From contig MWDY01000249.1 of NCBI GenBank assembly GCA_002070755.1, positions 1 through 8,147 of the forward strand: a stretch of DNA of 8,147 bases, given 5' to 3'. Both the position numbers and the translations under genes were made by a program. Below the pieces are notes generated by a model. That model made no database searches and was not told the DNA's origin. It saw nothing but the letters and a program-made list of their open reading frames with translations. The stretch is from Spirochaetes bacterium ADurb.Bin110. Its GTDB lineage: Bacteria > Spirochaetota > Spirochaetia > Treponematales > Rectinemataceae. Positions 1,988 to 7,801 of this stretch are shown piece by piece; within the stretch, counting starts at the first letter, position 1; every line of letters starts with the position of its first letter.

Positions 1988-2111
1988 GCACATTAAAAAA
2001 ATGCTTACCAAGGCACATAAAATATTCTTTACCAACAAGGCATATAAAAAATACCTTACTGTACCACATAAAAAACATCTTCCCGAAGCATTTAAAATTG
2101 CCTTGAAATTA
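1988..2111. repeat. Degenerate AT-rich direct repeat, five units of 24-27 bp, in a gene-free stretch
   Basis: Units begin at about 1988, 2013, 2040, 2064 and 2088, roughly following GCACATAAAAAA, a short variable part, then a CTTACC-like end. The spacings are 25, 27, 24 and 24 bases. The last units have an 8-codon period, and on the plus strand they read as lysine-rich peptides such as KAYKKYL, PHKKHL and AFKIAL, which could point to a decayed repeat-protein gene or to a simple DNA repeat. No convincing gene, RNA or other signal was seen in the rest of 1945-2284. Confidence 0.5.
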
Positions 2112-2284
2112 GCAAGATTGTGTGGGAATAGCGCTTCTCTTTTCAATTTAGGACACAGAGAGGTCAGTGCTTCATTAATATTTTTCTGCCCGCAAGGTCT
2201 GTCTAATGTGTGCGTGAAATCAACAATGCAAAGTCAAGATTGATGTTTGCTGCAATTTATCAATTTCTCAGAATGAATCTTTTC

Positions 2285-2674
2285 TTAGGCTTTTGTTTCT
2301 GGTTCAAATCGCTTACATTGCATAGCCGGGATGAATTTGTAGTGTTTGTCATTGGCGGTGAGAAGTGTTTCTCCTCTCTGTATGACAGTTGCTGCGATCA
2401 AAGCATCCGCCAAATACATTGAATGACTAAAGGCATATTCTTCTATGTAGAACATCGTTCTAGAAGAAATCTCGTTGTCTATGTGGATAATCTTTGTATT
2501 CCAATTCTGTATTTGTTTTTGGAAACGTCGGTACTCTTCTTTGTTCTTCATCCTTTGCACAAGTTCGATATAGGTTACGACCGATAGAGAGAATGGAAGA
2601 GCTGTTTCAACGGCATCCTTTGCCTTCTCATTGCCTCGGAGATACCAAATAAGGACATCGGTATCGATAATCAA
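2285..2674 (-). CDS. vapC: PIN-domain ribonuclease toxin, VapC family
   Basis: A 129-residue protein with the compact PIN fold typical of VapC toxins, which cut tRNA or rRNA and are neutralised by a cognate antitoxin. It opens MIIDTDVLIWYLRGN; the metal-binding acidic residues visible are D4, E37 (in TYIEL), D90 (in LADALIAAT) and D109 (in TANDKHY). Length fits the family (about 125-140). The start is TTG 2674, overlapping the antitoxin stop by four bases, with a GGGAG ribosome binding site a few bases upstream; this arrangement couples translation to the upstream antitoxin gene. All catalytic residues are present, so the toxin should be active. The exact RNA target cannot be read from the sequence. 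Confidence 0.93.
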   Translation of the reverse strand: MIIDTDVLIWYLRGNEKAKDAVETALPFSLSVVTYIELVQRMKNKEEYRRFQKQIQNWNTKIIHIDNEISSRTMFYIEEYAFSHSMYLADALIAATVIQRGETLLTANDKHYKFIPAMQCKRFEPETKA

Positions 2675-2913
2675 AATACTCTCCCTTTTCTGAGATCGCG
2701 GACCTGTTCTTCGACCGATTTGTCTGTAGGATGATCTTTCCAGAGGCCGAAGATTGTTTCTTCATTGCGATCATCTACCGTATTCTCATTCTTAAAAGGG
2801 ACGATTTTTGCAAGAGCTTTTCCGCGATAAGTAATGATAACTTCTTGTCCCTTAGCGACATGCTCGATTATTTTTCCGGGCTGAATACGGAGTTCTTTCG
2901 TGGTTATTTTCAT
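2671..2913 (-). CDS. Phd/YefM-type antitoxin of the VapC pair
   Basis: An 80-residue protein that starts MKITTKELRIQPGKIIEHV and continues GQEVIITYRGKALAKIVPF. This is the N-terminal DNA-binding region shared by Phd/YefM-type antitoxins. The C-terminal part, ending VEEQVRDLRKGRVF, is the segment expected to wrap around the PIN toxin. It is the first gene of a two-gene operon, followed by vapC with a four-base overlap. ATG 2913 fits the start of the family, and a GGTAAG stretch lies close upstream. It probably represses its own promoter together with the toxin, since two perfect 13-bp direct repeats lie at the promoter. Phd-like antitoxins with PIN toxins are well known, so the name VapB is used loosely here. 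Confidence 0.9.
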   Translation of the reverse strand: MKITTKELRIQPGKIIEHVAKGQEVIITYRGKALAKIVPFKNENTVDDRNEETIFGLWKDHPTDKSVEEQVRDLRKGRVF

Positions 2914-3121: not shown

Positions 3122-3868
3122 TCACCGTGGCATCAGTGCAAAGACACCCCAGCCAAGGTATTCACGAGTATAAGCGGCATAGCGCTCTGGTTCCGAGCTA
3201 AGTGCGTCTCGAATATCTTTCGCTAACTCGTCGTCTGGATTGGCTTCAAGCCATCGGCGCATGGTGAGCCATTTTGCTGCCTCGTATCTGTCCCAGCTGT
3301 CTTGGTCAGCCAGAACCATTTCAACGACATCGTAGCCAAGCTGTCTGAAAGACGCGAGAAATTCTGGAAGCAGGAGAAAGTCGGAAATTGAGCCAGCAAG
3401 ACAGCCCTTGGCAACATCTTCTGTCGGTGGTAATTGCCTCCAGTAGGGCTCGCCTATGAGGATGATACCTCCAGTGCGTAGGCTCCGCGCCAGAAGCTCA
3501 ATAGTGCCAGCGACTCCTCCACCGATCCACGTGGCACCGACACAAGCTGCCACATCGACCTTCTCGTCAGAGACATATCCTGCAGCATCGCCATGGATGA
3601 ATTTGACCTGATCGGCCACCCCGAGCTCTTCAGCGCGGAGTTTCGCTTGCTCAGTGAATAACTGGCTCATATCGATGCCGATGCCAACGATTCCGTAATC
3701 GCGTGCCCAGGTACATAGCATCTCCCCAGAACCGCTACCGAGGTCGAGCACCCGCATACCTTTTTCCAGACGCAGCGCCGCACCAAGAGTGGCCAGCTTT
3801 TCTGGTGTGAATGGATTATGGATGCGGTGAGCACTTTCGGTGATGTTGAAAATACGTGGAATATCCAT
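3122..3868 (-). CDS. Class I SAM-dependent methyltransferase
   Basis: A Rossmann-fold methyltransferase of 248 residues, predicted cytoplasmic. Motif I is VLDLGSGSGEM at residues 40-50, followed by the acidic end of strand two at GIGIDMSQ (D66), a GDAAGYV block and the IILIGEPYW block. The region before motif I, SAHRIHNPFTPEKLATLG, is strongly family-like and argues for the start at ATG 3868, which has AGGG about 8 bases upstream. A GTG at 3907 would add 13 residues without support. The substrate is unknown; small-molecule methylation is the usual guess for this group. The gene is visibly GC-richer than the toxin-antitoxin genes around it and stands alone, which suggests separate acquisition. 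No attC site flanks it. Confidence 0.88.
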   Translation of the reverse strand: MDIPRIFNITESAHRIHNPFTPEKLATLGAALRLEKGMRVLDLGSGSGEMLCTWARDYGIVGIGIDMSQLFTEQAKLRAEELGVADQVKFIHGDAAGYVSDEKVDVAACVGATWIGGGVAGTIELLARSLRTGGIILIGEPYWRQLPPTEDVAKGCLAGSISDFLLLPEFLASFRQLGYDVVEMVLADQDSWDRYEAAKWLTMRRWLEANPDDELAKDIRDALSSEPERYAAYTREYLGWGVFALMPR

Positions 3869-3959
3869 TGGAAAAACCCTACTTATAGTTGCAAATAGAT
3901 CGGCCACTGCCTAACATATTATTTACCATTGGAGTTCTTTTGCCTATAGTATTTCGCTG

Positions 3960-4268: not shown

Positions 4269-4826
4269 ATGAGTTCAGACATAAAAGATATCGATTCGCG
4301 GTCTTTTGTCGACCTGTTTTCGCCTTGCGACAGATGTATCTATTGGGAAGCGCCCGAGCAGTTTGGCACCAATGGGAATGACAGCCTGAAACTGGCGGGA
4401 AAAGACGCCTTTGGAATAAAGTGGGCTTGGTTTGAAGAGACACTGAAAATATTCGGACGATGTGGGGTAATTCTTTATGTCGATCGAGAGGCAGCAGGCT
4501 ATAGCCAATATGCTCCTCCCTCCCTACTTCCCAATGCTGCAGGATATGCGCAATTCATATCACCACCGAGTCGGGACGCGGTCCTGATTTCATGCCTGTA
4601 CATCCGGCCAGAATATCAGGGGCGGGGCCTGGGGAAAATCCTGCTTAGGAAGGTCACTGGAGACATAGAGGAAAGAGGCTATTACGCCGCAGAGACATAC
4701 GCCCGGGACGATTCGCCCGATAACTGCTCCGGCCCAACTGAATTTTATCTCAAAAGTGGCTTTACCTTGCTTACAACGAAGAAATGGAGCGAGGCCACAT
4801 TCTCTCTGCTCAGGCTCACCTTGTAA
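4269..4826 (+). CDS. GNAT family N-acetyltransferase
   Basis: A 185-residue protein of the Gcn5-related acetyltransferase fold, which moves an acetyl group from acetyl-CoA to an amine. The acetyl-CoA-binding motif A is clear: CLYIRPEYQGRGLGKILLRK at 109-128, with the Q/R-x-x-G-x-G signature at QGRGLG. The C-terminal part, TEFYLKSGFTLL, is the usual strand-helix-strand end of the fold. The N-terminal third, with CDRCIYWEAPEQF, resembles GNATs that begin with a Cys-containing segment. ATG 4269 has AGGA about 9 bases upstream, and TATAAT occurs at 4245-4250, with no good -35 box. It reads toward attC site A, the normal direction for a cassette gene. Substrate unknown. Confidence 0.9.
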   Translation: MSSDIKDIDSRSFVDLFSPCDRCIYWEAPEQFGTNGNDSLKLAGKDAFGIKWAWFEETLKIFGRCGVILYVDREAAGYSQYAPPSLLPNAAGYAQFISPPSRDAVLISCLYIRPEYQGRGLGKILLRKVTGDIEERGYYAAETYARDDSPDNCSGPTEFYLKSGFTLLTTKKWSEATFSLLRLTL

Positions 4827-4851: not shown

Positions 4852-4975
4852 ATGACAATCACCGAATTGAGCACTGAAAATATCGCTAATTAGCTCGATT
4901 TCTTAACAATAAGGCCTTTTCAGACCATCAGGACTGGGGAACATGTAATTGCCCCTATTATTTTCAGCCAAGACC
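4852..4975 (+). pseudogene. Remnant of the 5' end of a second GNAT-like gene
   Basis: A textbook AGGAGG ribosome binding site (4837-4842) stands 9 bases before ATG 4852, but the frame MTITELSTENIAN stops after 13 codons at 4891. In another frame, from about 4890, the reading continues LARFLNNKAFSDHQDWGTCN followed by CPYYFQPRPKNY. An AF-x-D-x-x-x-W-x-x-C-x-C pattern after such a start is found near the N-terminus of a GNAT subgroup, so this looks like a frameshifted gene start whose remainder is gone. The catalytic part is absent and the remnant ends about 20 bases before attC site A. The family assignment rests on short matches and is tentative. Confidence 0.5.
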
Positions 4976-4992
4976 GAAGAATTATCACCGAC

Positions 4993-5103
4993 TGTGACAG
5001 TGCGCTTAACCAGCGAGCCTCAAATTAGCGCAAAACTTACCGGGCTAAGCCTGAACGCAAGTCTTGTTACAACAGGCAAATCTGATTAAGGCGTTTGTTA
5101 GCC
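4993..5103 (+). other. Integron attC recombination site A
   Basis: The inner left arm CGCTTAACCAG (5003-5013) pairs with CTGATTAAGGCG (5082-5093), leaving one extra base on the right arm and one G-T pair. Outside it, separated by TTT, lies the right core box GTTAGCC (5097-5103), which matches the GTTRRRY cleavage box at 6 of 7 positions. The left core box position holds TGTGACA (4993-4999), which no longer resembles RYYYAAC. Between the arms a smaller imperfect stem (CAAAACTT with AAGTCTTG) can form. Layout, length (about 110 bp) and the extra base on the right arm are those of attC sites, with cassette orientation to the right. The degenerate left box may reduce its activity. Confidence 0.75.
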
Positions 5104-5119
5104 ATAGCATTCGTCTTCT

Positions 5120-5509
5120 TTACCTTTTCTTGGAATAGAATTCAAATGCTTTTTCCAATTCCACTTTCGTCATTTTATTACTAGCGACAGCCATCATAAT
5201 GTCATAAATTTCTTCTTCAGAACACTCAAAATCATAGCCATTGATATCAAGAAAAACTAATGCAGCAGCTAAAGCCGTTCGTTTGTTCCCATCAATCAAC
5301 GCATGATTCTCGCAGATGTGATAGGCGTATGCCGCAGCCATCTGTGGAATTGTTACATGAAGGTACTCATTTCCAAATGTTGCCTGTGGCACATAGATAG
5401 CAGAGCTTAAGAGCGAAATATCCCGCACACCATATCTTCCACCATACTGTCGAATCTGATCTTCATAAATGAGCAGTACTTCAGAGAGGGTCAAGAAGCG
5501 GATACTCAC
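5120..5509 (-). CDS. doc: Doc-type Fic-domain toxin
   Basis: A 129-residue protein of the Doc branch of the Fic fold. Doc of phage P1 phosphorylates elongation factor EF-Tu and stops translation; other family members transfer AMP. The active-site motif is HALIDGNKRT at residues 69-78 (H69, D73, N75, R77 present), with a leucine where the family usually has phenylalanine. The upstream YGGRYGVRDISLLSSAI segment and the ATFGNEYLH block are typical of the family. The start is GTG 5509, whose G is shared with the TAG of the antitoxin, and AGGTGA lies about 5 bases upstream, so translation is coupled. It is the last gene at the left end of the cassette. Length and catalytic residues are complete, so it is expected to be active. 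Confidence 0.92.
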   Translation of the reverse strand: MSIRFLTLSEVLLIYEDQIRQYGGRYGVRDISLLSSAIYVPQATFGNEYLHVTIPQMAAAYAYHICENHALIDGNKRTALAAALVFLDINGYDFECSEEEIYDIMMAVASNKMTKVELEKAFEFYSKKR

Positions 5510-5736
5510 TATTCACCTAGTTTCTTTAATGCGTGCTGATATTTTTGGTTAATTTTTTTTAGGGAATCAAGAATATCCTTTTCGCGAGATGCATCCTTCT
5601 GTGGTGAAAGGATGAGGTTTTTGCCGTCGGTTGTAATCTCAACCGGAGTGTCTAACGACATATTCAGTAAATCAAGAATAGGCTTGTCAAGGATAAGCGC
5701 CGCACTATTACCGTGCTGAATTAATTTCTTGATCAT
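5509..5736 (-). CDS. AbrB/MazE-type antitoxin of the Doc pair
   Basis: A 75-residue protein opening MIKKLIQHGNSAALILDKP, then LLNMSLDTPVEITTDGKNLI. This is the swapped-hairpin AbrB/SpoVT DNA-binding domain, with the GNS motif and the LxLxxxxxV pattern, at residues 1-46. The charged tail KINQKYQHALKKLGE at the C-terminus is suited to binding the toxin. GGAGG lies 7 bases before ATG 5736, a very strong ribosome binding site, as expected when antitoxin must be made in excess. It overlaps doc by one base. The classical Doc partner is Phd, so this is an AbrB/Doc pairing; the Phd-type antitoxin of this window instead sits with VapC. It likely represses its own promoter. Confidence 0.88.
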   Translation of the reverse strand: MIKKLIQHGNSAALILDKPILDLLNMSLDTPVEITTDGKNLILSPQKDASREKDILDSLKKINQKYQHALKKLGE

Positions 5737-5754
5737 ATATCTTCCTCCATTATA

Positions 5755-5783
5755 AATATATACACATTGTGTTTACATTTCAA
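5755..5783 (-). promoter_or_regulatory. Promoter and palindromic operator of the antitoxin/doc operon
   Basis: On the minus strand TTGAAA (5778-5783) and TATATT (5755-5760) are separated by 17 bases. Within the spacer lies ACACATTGTGT (5762-5772), a perfect 5-bp inverted repeat with a one-base centre, an obvious place for the antitoxin to bind. Transcription should start near 5748, just before the GGAGG ribosome binding site. A TATAAT at 5749-5754 could serve as an alternative -10 box but has no good partner. Confidence 0.6.
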
Positions 5784-5840
5784 GTAGGGAAGTATATTAT
5801 CTGTTTTGTACATTATGTTCTATTTCCCTTGCAGATTTCT

Positions 5841-5862
5841 TTATTTGTGTATTATTTGTGTA
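5841..5862. repeat. Perfect tandem 11-bp repeat between the two toxin-antitoxin operons
   Basis: TTATTTGTGTA occurs twice back to back (5841-5851 and 5852-5862), 58 bases upstream of the doc operon promoter. The reverse complement contains TACACA, which recalls the ACACA arm of the operator palindrome. It may be an extra binding site or just AT-rich repeat noise. Confidence 0.4.
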
Positions 5863-5903
5863 CTATACATCCTATTTTTCTTATATTATTGCATTTCTCA
5901 TTA

Positions 5904-6191
5904 TTAGACATGAGAAGTCTTTTTGGAACCTGTCTCCTTGAGTCTGCCGGTGACATATTTATGGAGAATGCTGGTCACGAGTGTCTGATAAGGAATGCCA
6001 TCTTCTAAGGCTTTTGTCTTTAATGCTTCAACATCACGTTTGGAGATACGAACATTGATCCGATAGTCCTTTATCGCGGTTTCGGCCGCTGCTTTCATGA
6101 GGTTCTGTTTAATCTCATCAAAATTGGAGACACTTGTCCATTCATCATTTTCTATGGACTGCATAAGTTCCTTTTCCTCATTTATGGTCAT
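5904..6191 (-). CDS. BrnA/CopG-type antitoxin
   Basis: A 95-residue protein with the layout of BrnA/CopG-like antitoxins. A charged N-terminal part includes MQSIENDEWTSV. The conserved C-terminal block has YRINVRISKRDVEALKTKA at about 43-61 followed by DGIPYQTLVTSILHKYVTGRL, a ribbon-helix-helix DNA-binding domain. ATG 6191 has GGAG about 8 bases upstream. The gene starts inside the end of the toxin gene with a 14-base overlap, so the order is toxin first, antitoxin second, as is usual for BrnT/BrnA systems. The last residues, GSKKTSHV, are specific to this copy. It is expected to repress the promoter upstream of the toxin. Confidence 0.9.
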   Translation of the reverse strand: MTINEEKELMQSIENDEWTSVSNFDEIKQNLMKAAAETAIKDYRINVRISKRDVEALKTKALEDGIPYQTLVTSILHKYVTGRLKETGSKKTSHV

Positions 6192-6468
6192 CTTGTTTTC
6201 TCCTTGTATACTGCTTTGTATATTTCCTGCTCGGGAAGGCCGTTTTCAGGAAATAGGTGCCGTTGTCTTCTGGGATGCAGGGAACACAGAAGGCATAGCC
6301 TTCAATCTCAACTACGAGAATGATTTGGTTGCCATATTTCTGTCTATTAGGATGTTCCAGAACATCGAGAAGATGACCTTCTTCAATGGCAACTACAATT
6401 CGTTCAAAAGAGATGCCTCTCTCTTTCTGCAAGAAGGTATTCTTTTCTTCATTCCAGTAGAAGCTCAT
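6178..6468 (-). CDS. BrnT-like (DUF497-type) ribonuclease toxin
   Basis: A 96-residue protein starting MSFYWNEEKNTFLQKERGIS, which is the usual beginning of the BrnT-like toxin group. It is followed by LLDVLEHPNRQKYGNQIILV and, near the end, YFLKTAFPSRKYTKQY. BrnT has an RNase fold related to RelE toxins. ATG 6468 is chosen over an in-frame TTG at 6504 because that TTG is part of the TTGACA -35 box and the family begins at this Met. There is no ribosome binding site, and the -10 box ends 7 bases before the ATG, so the message is probably leaderless. The downstream antitoxin gene overlaps by 14 bases. The match is to the more divergent BrnT-like group rather than to classical Brucella BrnT. 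Confidence 0.86.
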   Translation of the reverse strand: MSFYWNEEKNTFLQKERGISFERIVVAIEEGHLLDVLEHPNRQKYGNQIILVVEIEGYAFCVPCIPEDNGTYFLKTAFPSRKYTKQYTRRKQDDHK

Positions 6469-6475
6469 ACGGATA

Positions 6476-6504
6476 AATATAGGGTTATGTATGCCTGATG
6501 TCAA
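6476..6504 (-). promoter_or_regulatory. Consensus promoter of the BrnT/antitoxin operon
   Basis: TTGACA (6499-6504, a perfect -35 box) and TATATT (6476-6481) are separated by 17 bases on the minus strand. Only 7 bases follow before ATG 6468, so transcription should start at about the start codon. Just upstream, AGCTATTA is repeated at 6523-6530 and 6537-6544 (14-base period), a possible additional control site. Confidence 0.72.
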
Positions 6505-6589
6505 TACATGGTTTCAAAAGAGAGCTATTAAAAGAAAGCTATTATAGAAGAGAATGAATCACGGATAAAGGGAAGTGCCCGAGGCATCC

Positions 6590-6701
6590 GTCTAACGTGC
6601 GCTTAACCAGCGGGCCTGAGATTGGCGCGGTTTGTGCTTGAGCAAAGCGCAAAAGCACAAACTGTGACAACAGGCGAGTCTGGTTGAAGCGGTTGTTAGG
6701 A
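6590..6701 (+). other. Integron attC recombination site B
   Basis: The left core box GTCTAAC (6590-6596) matches RYYYAAC fully and pairs with the right box GTTAGGA (6695-6701; 6 of 7 to GTTRRRY). Inside, after three-base spacers, CGCTTAACCAG (6600-6610) pairs with CTGGTTGAAGCG (6680-6691), with one unpaired base on the right arm as in site A. The centre contains a perfect 10-bp inverted repeat, GTTTGTGCTT with AAGCACAAAC, forming the inner stem. Site A shares the left arm and an ACAACAGGC stretch with it, so both belong to one attC family. This is the more intact of the two sites. Confidence 0.82.
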
Positions 6702-6793: not shown

Positions 6794-7801
6794 CTATTCT
6801 GCAATCCCTCTTCCCAAAATCAGCTCGGGCCGATACTCGAAGTGCATATTATCCCAGACTGTCCACTTCCCGCCCCAAACAAATCCCTCATTTTCGAAAA
6901 TATCGATAACCTGCTTGGGGGGCATCCAGCGTTCGGACAGCGGGATGAGCATCCAGTCCTCGTTGCCTTTATTCTTTTCCCAGTTCCAGTAGATGATCTT
7001 ATTCTGCCAGCTGCGTGGCAGTATATCGATGGCGAGACCCATACTATGAAAGGAGATGCCGTTTGTATCGCGTATCTGGCGCCAGGAATAGCCATCGATG
7101 GAGCTTATCGATTCCACAAAAGCTTTCACTGAAGCATTGGTCTGGGCCGCAGCAAGGATTTGCTCTTCAACTCGCGCAAGAAGTTCCACAATATGTTTGT
7201 GGACGCTTACCTGTTTTCCCAAAAAGATTGTCTTTACAATGTGCCGCTCGACATCTTCTCTTGTGGATGTTTCATAGATTGCTTCAAAAAAAGAAGTCGC
7301 AGATACTGGCGCAGTCTCTCGGCTCTCTGAGGAACCAAAATCGCGAATTTCTTCGATTTGAGCATCACTGAAGGTGGCAGGATCAGCAAGCTTTTTAGGG
7401 ATATAGAAGATGAGTTTGCGATATTTTTCCTTAGAGCCAAGAAGTTTCGCTGGCAGATACCGCCCCTCTGCCCAATAAAGTTCAACGGTGGTGTCGTCCT
7501 TTGTAATGTATATTTTCCAATCGCGTATTGCCGGATCGAAGATATTTTCGATCTTGATGCCTGGATAAGCAGCGCGAAGGACACTCAGCTCTTGGTCTAT
7601 TCTTGAAGGGCTTTCGGTTAGGATTCGAGGCGCTGGACCTGATCTGGGCGCTAGCAAGTATATAATAATAAATGCAAGGCCTACTGCAAATCCTAAAGCG
7701 ATCTTAACTAGACGGTTCGAATTAGGACTAAAATTTTGCGCCTCTTCTTCCTTATCTTTTTCCTGGTCATTATCAAGCATCGTGCTATAAAGATAGCGCA
7801 T
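6794..7801 (-). CDS. Membrane-anchored M15-type (VanY-like) peptidase
   Basis: A 335-residue protein with a charged cytoplasmic N-terminus of about 30 residues and one transmembrane segment (LVKIALGFAVGLAFIIIYLL, residues 31-50). The C-terminal domain lies outside the cytoplasmic membrane and has the M15 zinc-peptidase pattern: SFHSMGLAIDI with H252 and D259 as ligands and WDNMHFEYRPE with H320 as the third. Enzymes of this family cut D-Ala-D-Ala or other peptidoglycan peptide bonds, so a cell-wall remodelling role is likely. The middle part (residues 55-230) has no motif I recognise. Neither ATG 7801 nor the in-frame ATG 7780 has a ribosome binding site, so the start is uncertain by 7 residues. 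Gene-poor DNA of about 90 bp (6702-6793) separates it from the integron part. Confidence 0.82.
   Translation of the reverse strand: MRYLYSTMLDNDQEKDKEEEAQNFSPNSNRLVKIALGFAVGLAFIIIYLLAPRSGPAPRILTESPSRIDQELSVLRAAYPGIKIENIFDPAIRDWKIYITKDDTTVELYWAEGRYLPAKLLGSKEKYRKLIFYIPKKLADPATFSDAQIEEIRDFGSSESRETAPVSATSFFEAIYETSTREDVERHIVKTIFLGKQVSVHKHIVELLARVEEQILAAAQTNASVKAFVESISSIDGYSWRQIRDTNGISFHSMGLAIDILPRSWQNKIIYWNWEKNKGNEDWMLIPLSERWMPPKQVIDIFENEGFVWGGKWTVWDNMHFEYRPELILGRGIAE

Follow-up and report, generated by a model that had tools for sequence, protein, structure and literature searches.

Whether two attC-like sites without an accompanying integrase gene are a genuine piece of an integron, and by what route such a piece reached a spirochaete chromosome, is the question raised by an 8,147 bp stretch of contig MWDY01000249.1 from Spirochaetes bacterium ADurb.Bin110, which in its entirety is referred to here as the window. 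An original prediction, made from the sequence of the window alone, had proposed a cluster of attC sites lacking an integron integrase (CALIN). The analysis presented here indicates that the window, from a Rectinema-like spirochaete chromosome, very probably contains a small decaying integron-cassette remnant that would formally be classed as a CALIN. All coordinates refer to the window unless stated otherwise, and genomes, contigs and loci of the comparison set are designated by G, C and L numbers, respectively.

Identification of two attC sites

Site 2 (6590-6701, 112 bp, minus strand) is complete, with the R'' box TCCTAAC and the R' box GTTAGAC, and site 1 (4993-5103, 111 bp, minus strand) is damaged, its R'' box being GGCTAAC and the region of its R' box reading TGTCACA. 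The two sites have the same orientation with starts 1597 bp apart, both contain the stretch ACAACAGGC, and their inner arms align with one extra base, which is located on the right arm of the plus strand. These properties agree with what had been predicted, i.e. two sites of about 110 bp in one orientation and 1.6 kb apart, a common sequence stretch and an extra base on the right arm. When the triplets AAC and GTT were scored within the core boxes (R'' RYYYAAC and R' GTTRRRY), site 2 was found to carry both, and site 1, taken by itself, retains the AAC of R'' and is missing the crossover triplet GTT of R' in the box-by-box comparison. Viewed on the plus strand, the left box of site 1 is TGTGACA where YYYAAC is expected, so that three of the four core boxes said to be shared are present and this one is not. 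The plus strand of site 2 is predicted to fold at -32.9 kcal/mol (z -6.17 versus shuffled sequences) and its minus strand less stably, at -25.3 kcal/mol (z -3.92). For site 1 the fold is not better than that of shuffled sequences on either strand (z -0.05) and the arms are not formed; the internal palindrome attributed to both sites is thus strong in site 2 and no different from shuffled sequence in site 1.

Detection of the sites was based on models derived from spirochaete arrays of this analysis, rather than on the model employed by IntegronFinder. Model R1 comprises eight sites including both window sites, and its window scores are in-sample; R2 is a covariance model of 27 attC sites from related spirochaetes which contains no window sequence, its candidate sites having come from an R1 search. 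In the window, R2 returned two matches in one orientation, site 2 with 103.7 bits (E 1.7e-24) and site 1 with 62.5 bits (E 8.9e-14), which is the outcome that the original prediction had anticipated from such a model. With filters switched off, the opposite strand of site 2 scored 36.6 bits and, besides this, the next-best score in the window was only 9.1 bits. Applied to the other 17 loci up to an E of 10, R2 matched only L001 and L002, which are two of the three contigs picked up by the attC pattern search, and gave no match in the 15 other searched loci without that pattern. A search of Rfam produced no integron-related match, and a scan of the viral collection for the attC pattern produced no match. 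It is close to certain that the two window sites are genuine attC sites.

Strand assignment and direction of the cassette genes

In an attC site the extra base of the imperfect inner arms determines which strand recombines, and in a standard site it is located on the left (L'') arm. Because the extra base of the window sites sits on the right arm of the plus strand, the minus strand of the window is assigned as the true attC top strand, which reverses the strand choice made originally, and because of this assignment the cassette genes (5120-6504, minus strand) run in the normal direction. The plus strand of site 2 would then be the recombinogenic bottom strand. Among 32 other attC sites, the assigned bottom strand folds more stably in 30, and the assigned top strand carries the longest open reading frame (ORF, at least 80 aa) in 64 of the 71 array intervals that were scored, the other strand doing so in seven (74 intervals between neighbouring sites in G036 and G009, three being unscored). 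The idea that the cassette genes run backwards was dropped, as the other strand is favoured alike by the arm on which the extra base sits, by the stability of the folds, by the direction of the ORFs and by the layout of Treponema intI.

Integron integrases in the window and in related genomes

The claim that the window lacks an integrase was borne out for the frames scanned, as no recombinase was detected among 13 window reading frames scanned with Pfam, 10 of which were also scanned with NCBIfam, most of the 57 window ORFs of at least 50 aa, largely short or overlapping, being outside this profile scan. For the frames scanned, the 8147 bp taken by themselves agree with the definition of a CALIN (at least two neighbouring attC sites and no integrase close by) and, attI not having been searched for, do not display a complete integron.

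Among the related genomes, an integron integrase scoring above the TIGR02249 cut-off was found in 39 of 98 (Rectinema subterraneum and relatives), and an R1 match at an E of 0.01 or better likewise in 39 of 98. Across the genome collection, three contigs contained the attC pattern, one belonging to Rectinema subterraneum and two to metagenome-assembled genomes (MAGs) labelled Firmicutes and Methanomicrobiales; for the latter two (L001 and L002, with Rectinema-type attC sites), mis-binning is as likely as transfer. Ordered same-strand attC arrays adjoin intI in G009 (19 copies) and in G036 (40 copies), with some intervals between array sites being 3 kb or longer. Six genomes (G001, G004, G007, G009, G036 and G054) have intI and the array in divergent arrangement, and in 14 intI points in the array direction. 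A tree was built from 38 of the 43 integrase matches, with five partial or broken ones excluded and a partial G004 frame of 276 aa kept, and in it these two sets fall on opposite sides of one branch with a support of 100/100; 18 of the 38 have no layout assignment, and two of these (G010 and G011) are placed within the divergent clade. The Rectinema-type integrases, which have the conventional divergent layout, are by this tree a clade apart from the Treponema-type ‘reverse’ integrons. Among the loci compared, the best DNA matches of the window attC sites are found in G001, a member of the divergent group.

Cassette A and its toxin-antitoxin cargo

The region between the two attC sites, together with site 1 as its own attC, is designated cassette A (4993-6595, minus strand) and contains four minus-strand genes in two putative toxin-antitoxin modules, which matches the expectation of addiction modules as cargo. 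The first module consists of a Doc-type toxin (Fic/DOC, death-on-curing; 5120-5509, minus strand), which exceeds the cut-offs of both TIGR01550 (60.6 bits, cut-off 38.65) and PF02661 (56.2 bits, cut-off 24), and a putative MazE/AbrB-like Doc antidote (5509-5736, minus strand), whose frame overlaps the Doc frame by one base and whose score for TIGR02609 (doc_partner, 24.3 bits) is under the cut-off of 55.9. In the second module, a CopG-type antitoxin (5904-6191, minus strand; PF12441, 28.5 bits, just above the cut-off of 28) is overlapped by the frame of a BrnT-like toxin (6178-6504, minus strand). The latter assignment is weak, the scores obtained for the BrnT/BrnA pair being 18 bits for PF04365 (cut-off 34.5) and 16.4 bits for PF14384 (cut-off 26.1). 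The BrnT-like protein has a 61% amino acid match over 54 aa in G076, at approximately 1.3 kb from the intI gene of that genome.

Counterparts of the Doc module are present in G009, G036, G004 and others, at places separate from those of the BrnT-like module, which for its part occurs in G004, G009, G001 and others. As the two modules are separate in these relatives, cassette A may have been formed by the joining of two modules, or an attC site that once lay between them may have been lost.

A probable third attC site and an IS21-type remnant

A probable third attC site, decayed, is located at approximately 2202-2290 (minus strand). It was read by eye and from flanking homology, with an R' box ATTAGAC at 2202-2208 and its inner hairpin lost, and it is below detection by models R1 and R2. 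It is associated with a further module in which both families are above their cut-offs, namely a VapC-type PIN toxin (2285-2674, minus strand; PF01850, 44.6 bits, cut-off 23.6) and a Phd/YefM-type antitoxin (2671-2913, minus strand; PF02604, 32.5 bits, cut-off 29.8). This module (2285-2913) exhibits 74% DNA identity to an attC-linked module in G006:C211 and also 74% identity to one within a G009 array. The 80 bp past the third site (2118-2197) are 86% identical to a cassette start in the other G009 array, which there lies 9 bp after its attC. The third attC site thus probably belongs to a VapC/Phd cassette.

The segment at 1994-2114 (plus strand), which includes short repeats, is interpreted as the remnant of an IS21-family transposon end because it shares 82% identity with the sequence lying downstream of the L001 istB gene (PF01695, 206 bits). 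Within L001 itself, at positions 5250-5400 of that locus, an IS21-type end is directly followed by an apparent attC right half (read by eye), as if it had inserted into an attC site.

Chromosomal flanks and host lineage

On the left, the segment 3969-4985 (plus strand) is a chromosomal segment common to relatives, with 87-88% DNA identity to G009:C8 and, in pieces, 70-82% identity to G010:C6. It comprises a GNAT acetyltransferase gene (4269-4826) and the beginning of a second one, of which the 5’ part (4852-4986, plus strand) can be aligned to a G009 frame and is interrupted by an internal stop as well as a change of frame. This G009 counterpart is an open frame of 186 aa, with one residue unread, and is a GNAT protein by Pfam. 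Homology of the second GNAT gene stops at approximately 4986, about 7 bp before attC site 1. Some of the decayed cargo that had been proposed to the left of site 1 is accordingly a truncated chromosomal GNAT gene and not cassette cargo.

On the right, an M15 peptidase gene (VanY-like; 6794-7801, minus strand; PF13539, 68.2 bits) is conserved in G006, with 75% amino acid identity, and in G027, and no attC site was found near it on the contigs of these two genomes, the G006 contig having one weak match (25.7 bits) at its far end. The VanY-like protein of the window is most similar to proteins from a metagenome (99% identity) and from Spirochaetes bacterium ADurb.Bin110 (89%), followed further down by Rectinema sp. 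(79%); the nearest named relatives are thus those of a Spirochaetes MAG and of Rectinema, consistent with the spirochaete chromosome originally suggested. Since the GNAT genes on the left and the VanY-like gene on the right are chromosomal in relatives, the block appears from this comparison to sit between chromosomal genes. An empty, cassette-free site with the same flanks was not found in relatives.

Two further genes are encoded in the left half of the window. A methyltransferase gene (3122-3907) is 81-88% identical to sequences at four places in three genomes (G005 twice, G012 and G051); it is patchily distributed among the 98 genomes searched, and no attC site is present on the stretches fetched around its copies. 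An AAA_14/DUF4143 ATPase gene (724-1878) is preceded by an imperfect inverted repeat at approximately 657-713, and the region of this repeat (663-719) has an 84% identical counterpart in G010.

Dispersed attC sites outside arrays

Relatives also carry isolated attC cassettes away from arrays, and the retention of the box triplets was compared between 19 such dispersed sites and 75 array sites. The array control consists of G036 and G009 only, two of 77 sites having been dropped (one split between two pieces, one a 65 bp match). The dispersed set excludes contig-end sites, clusters of at least three, both G006:C211 sites and the second site of a two-site place in G036; it retains three sites on short G006 contigs (L088, L089 and L090), as well as L121 and L093, which are not independent. 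GTT is kept at 13 of the 19 dispersed sites versus 72 of the 75 array sites (Fisher p 0.0019), and AAC at 15 of 19 versus 71 of 75 (Fisher p 0.05). For the dispersed sites of G036 and G009 the GTT count is 2 of 5 (p 0.0023), and for those of the other genomes, with L093 removed, it is 11 of 13 (p 0.16, not significant). Leaving out L093 together with the sites on the three short G006 contigs gives 11 of 15 (p 0.014). The proposal that dispersed sites are generally marked by the absence of the R' GTT was consequently borne out only in part, the effect resting on G036 and G009. In the Rectinema/Gracilinema group, crossover-box loss of the kind seen in site 1 may thus be more frequent away from arrays, and either decay or an insertion event at a chromosomal site could have caused it.

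A second proposal, that dispersed cassettes are enriched for toxin-antitoxin modules, failed: such modules were assigned to 8 of 23 dispersed loci and are common in arrays too, with seven PIN and four ParE proteins identified by Pfam among 60 ORFs of the G036 array, i.e. in at most 11 of 39 intervals for these two families. The eight assignments were made by reading the loci, four being confirmed by Pfam, and in one of them the pair is on the opposite strand; three were counted as such on the basis of DUF6290, which we take to be an antitoxin family. The cargo scan covered 42 ORFs, with L126, one of the 23 loci, being excluded as it contains no same-strand ORF. A two-gene cassette encoding a 91 aa protein, without Pfam family in G009, and a DUF6290 protein was observed beside a GTT-less attC site in three genomes (L121 6942-7426, L093 4497-4981 and L125 7305-7783). 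The view that one cassette had reached three places independently lost support, because the G009 and G010 copies are in common chromosomal surroundings and only the G036 copy is elsewhere.

A broader possibility is that in Rectinema/Gracilinema-type spirochaetes cassettes repeatedly leave arrays and become locked in the chromosome by replacement or loss of R', with toxin-antitoxin cassettes as examples. This generalization is considered rather unlikely, its standing being lowered because the GTT-loss effect rests mainly on G036 and G009. If true, it would mean that the integron turns mobile cassettes into resident chromosomal toxin-antitoxin loci.

Origin of the remnant

To account for the remnant, it is proposed that the cassette or cassettes would have been moved via the folded plus strand of attC by a Rectinema-type integron integrase, whose gene lies elsewhere or was present in the past. 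Arrival may have occurred by recombination with a chromosomal site other than attI (attG-type), which would have left the chromosomal half in the R' box of site 1, or by a rearrangement that fused an array end to the chromosome; these two routes are not distinguishable. Insertion at attG is reportedly the subject of Loot et al. 2024. Considering that its GTT is gone and its hairpin lost, site 1 is expected to be a poor substrate, and cassette A is therefore probably now fixed in place. The toxin-antitoxin modules, probably equipped with their own promoters, would resist deletion, such promoters having been reported for modules of other integrons (PMC11023631; this and the papers cited below are drawn on in part).

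Two observations weigh against this interpretation. The missing remainder of the second GNAT gene is present nowhere else in the window, including the other side of the cassette, and because of its absence a clean insertion with an empty site is not demonstrated. Furthermore, no attC site was found at six loci of relatives with Doc or BrnT-like modules (scanned to approximately 1.5 kb in both directions, or less if the contig ended sooner), from which it follows that these modules also exist outside cassettes.

One alternative holds that a sedentary integron was formerly complete here and that the block is its broken end, the integrase and most cassettes having been lost through deletions, the IS21-type element and rearrangements, and the leftover then being fused to chromosomal genes. 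This amounts to an alternative arrival route within the remnant interpretation, and its probability is put at slightly below an even chance. Within 8 kb there are a third decayed attC site, the remnant of an IS21 end, a gene that has been truncated and synteny of mixed character, which, together with the 80 bp at 2118-2197 that match a cassette start inside a G009 array, are in line with such a history. However, G036 and G009 contain isolated cassettes with their main array elsewhere, and dispersal needs no loss of an array.

It is, in turn, quite improbable that the window is the distal part of a complete integron whose integrase is located just beyond the 8 kb. Many relatives possess integrases and arrays (39 of 98 genomes have an integrase above the cut-off), and intervals of 3 kb or more between array attC sites would leave room for this, but the genes of the flanks (VanY-like on the right and the GNAT pair on the left) are without nearby attC in the scanned stretches of relatives. 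That the two sites belong to a genome-wide repetitive extragenic palindromic (REP) or miniature inverted-repeat transposable element (MITE) family unrelated to integrons, the refuting alternative named in the original prediction, is hardly credible despite the dispersed single copies in relatives, being contradicted by the ordered same-strand arrays next to intI in G009 (19) and G036 (40) and by the retention of AAC in 71 and of GTT in 72 of 75 array copies.

Comparison with known integrons and significance

A decaying cassette remnant, the interpretation preferred here, is an element of a kind that is already known, in a spirochaete lineage that is little described. A literature search found nothing joining Rectinema with an integron, and among the matches listed no mention of an integron was found in the literature on Gracilinema, on Spirochaeta or Treponema caldaria, or on S. 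thermophila. The locus by itself is fairly ordinary. Of greater interest is whether R' loss regularly leads to the fixation of cassettes outside arrays in these spirochaetes. The window and its relatives add a spirochaete lineage other than Treponema to the hosts of integrons, tied to a second clade of integrases, in which the layout is the conventional one, and offer concrete loci for studying both the fixation of cassettes outside arrays via R' loss and the role of toxin-antitoxin modules in the survival of remnants.

CALIN is a class defined by IntegronFinder (PMC9024848), for which a rule of 4 kb spacing between attC sites is given in PMC9668308. The window resembles this class in having two attC sites separated by under 4 kb and no integrase seen nearby, and differs from it in comprising 8 kb only, in that one site is without its crossover box and in that a probable third site has decayed past the models. 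Treponema is called the sole spirochaete clade found with integrons in PMC3607928, and its chromosomal integrons likewise have a spirochaete host, with attC sites longer than 100 bp in some species; T. phagedenis, as described there, has attC sites without intI and in this resembles the window. In contrast, the Treponema intI gene runs toward the array (PMC3607928), whereas the Rectinema-type intI is divergent and belongs to another integrase clade. Two atypical Spirochaetota IntI proteins, one from a hot spring, are placed next to archaeal IntI proteins in PMC9668308; these are distinct from the usual reverse-orientation group and in this respect resemble the Rectinema-type integrases.

The CALINs of Xanthomonas located away from the integron locus (PMC12444791) are likewise cassettes off the main array, in another phylum, the cargo of the window being of the toxin-antitoxin type and the crossover box of one of its sites being lost. 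Finally, the superintegrons of Vibrio (PMC11023631) likewise contain toxin-antitoxin cassettes, which are reported to punish cassette loss; there they are part of a large array, whereas the toxin-antitoxin cassettes of the window would reside in a small remnant.

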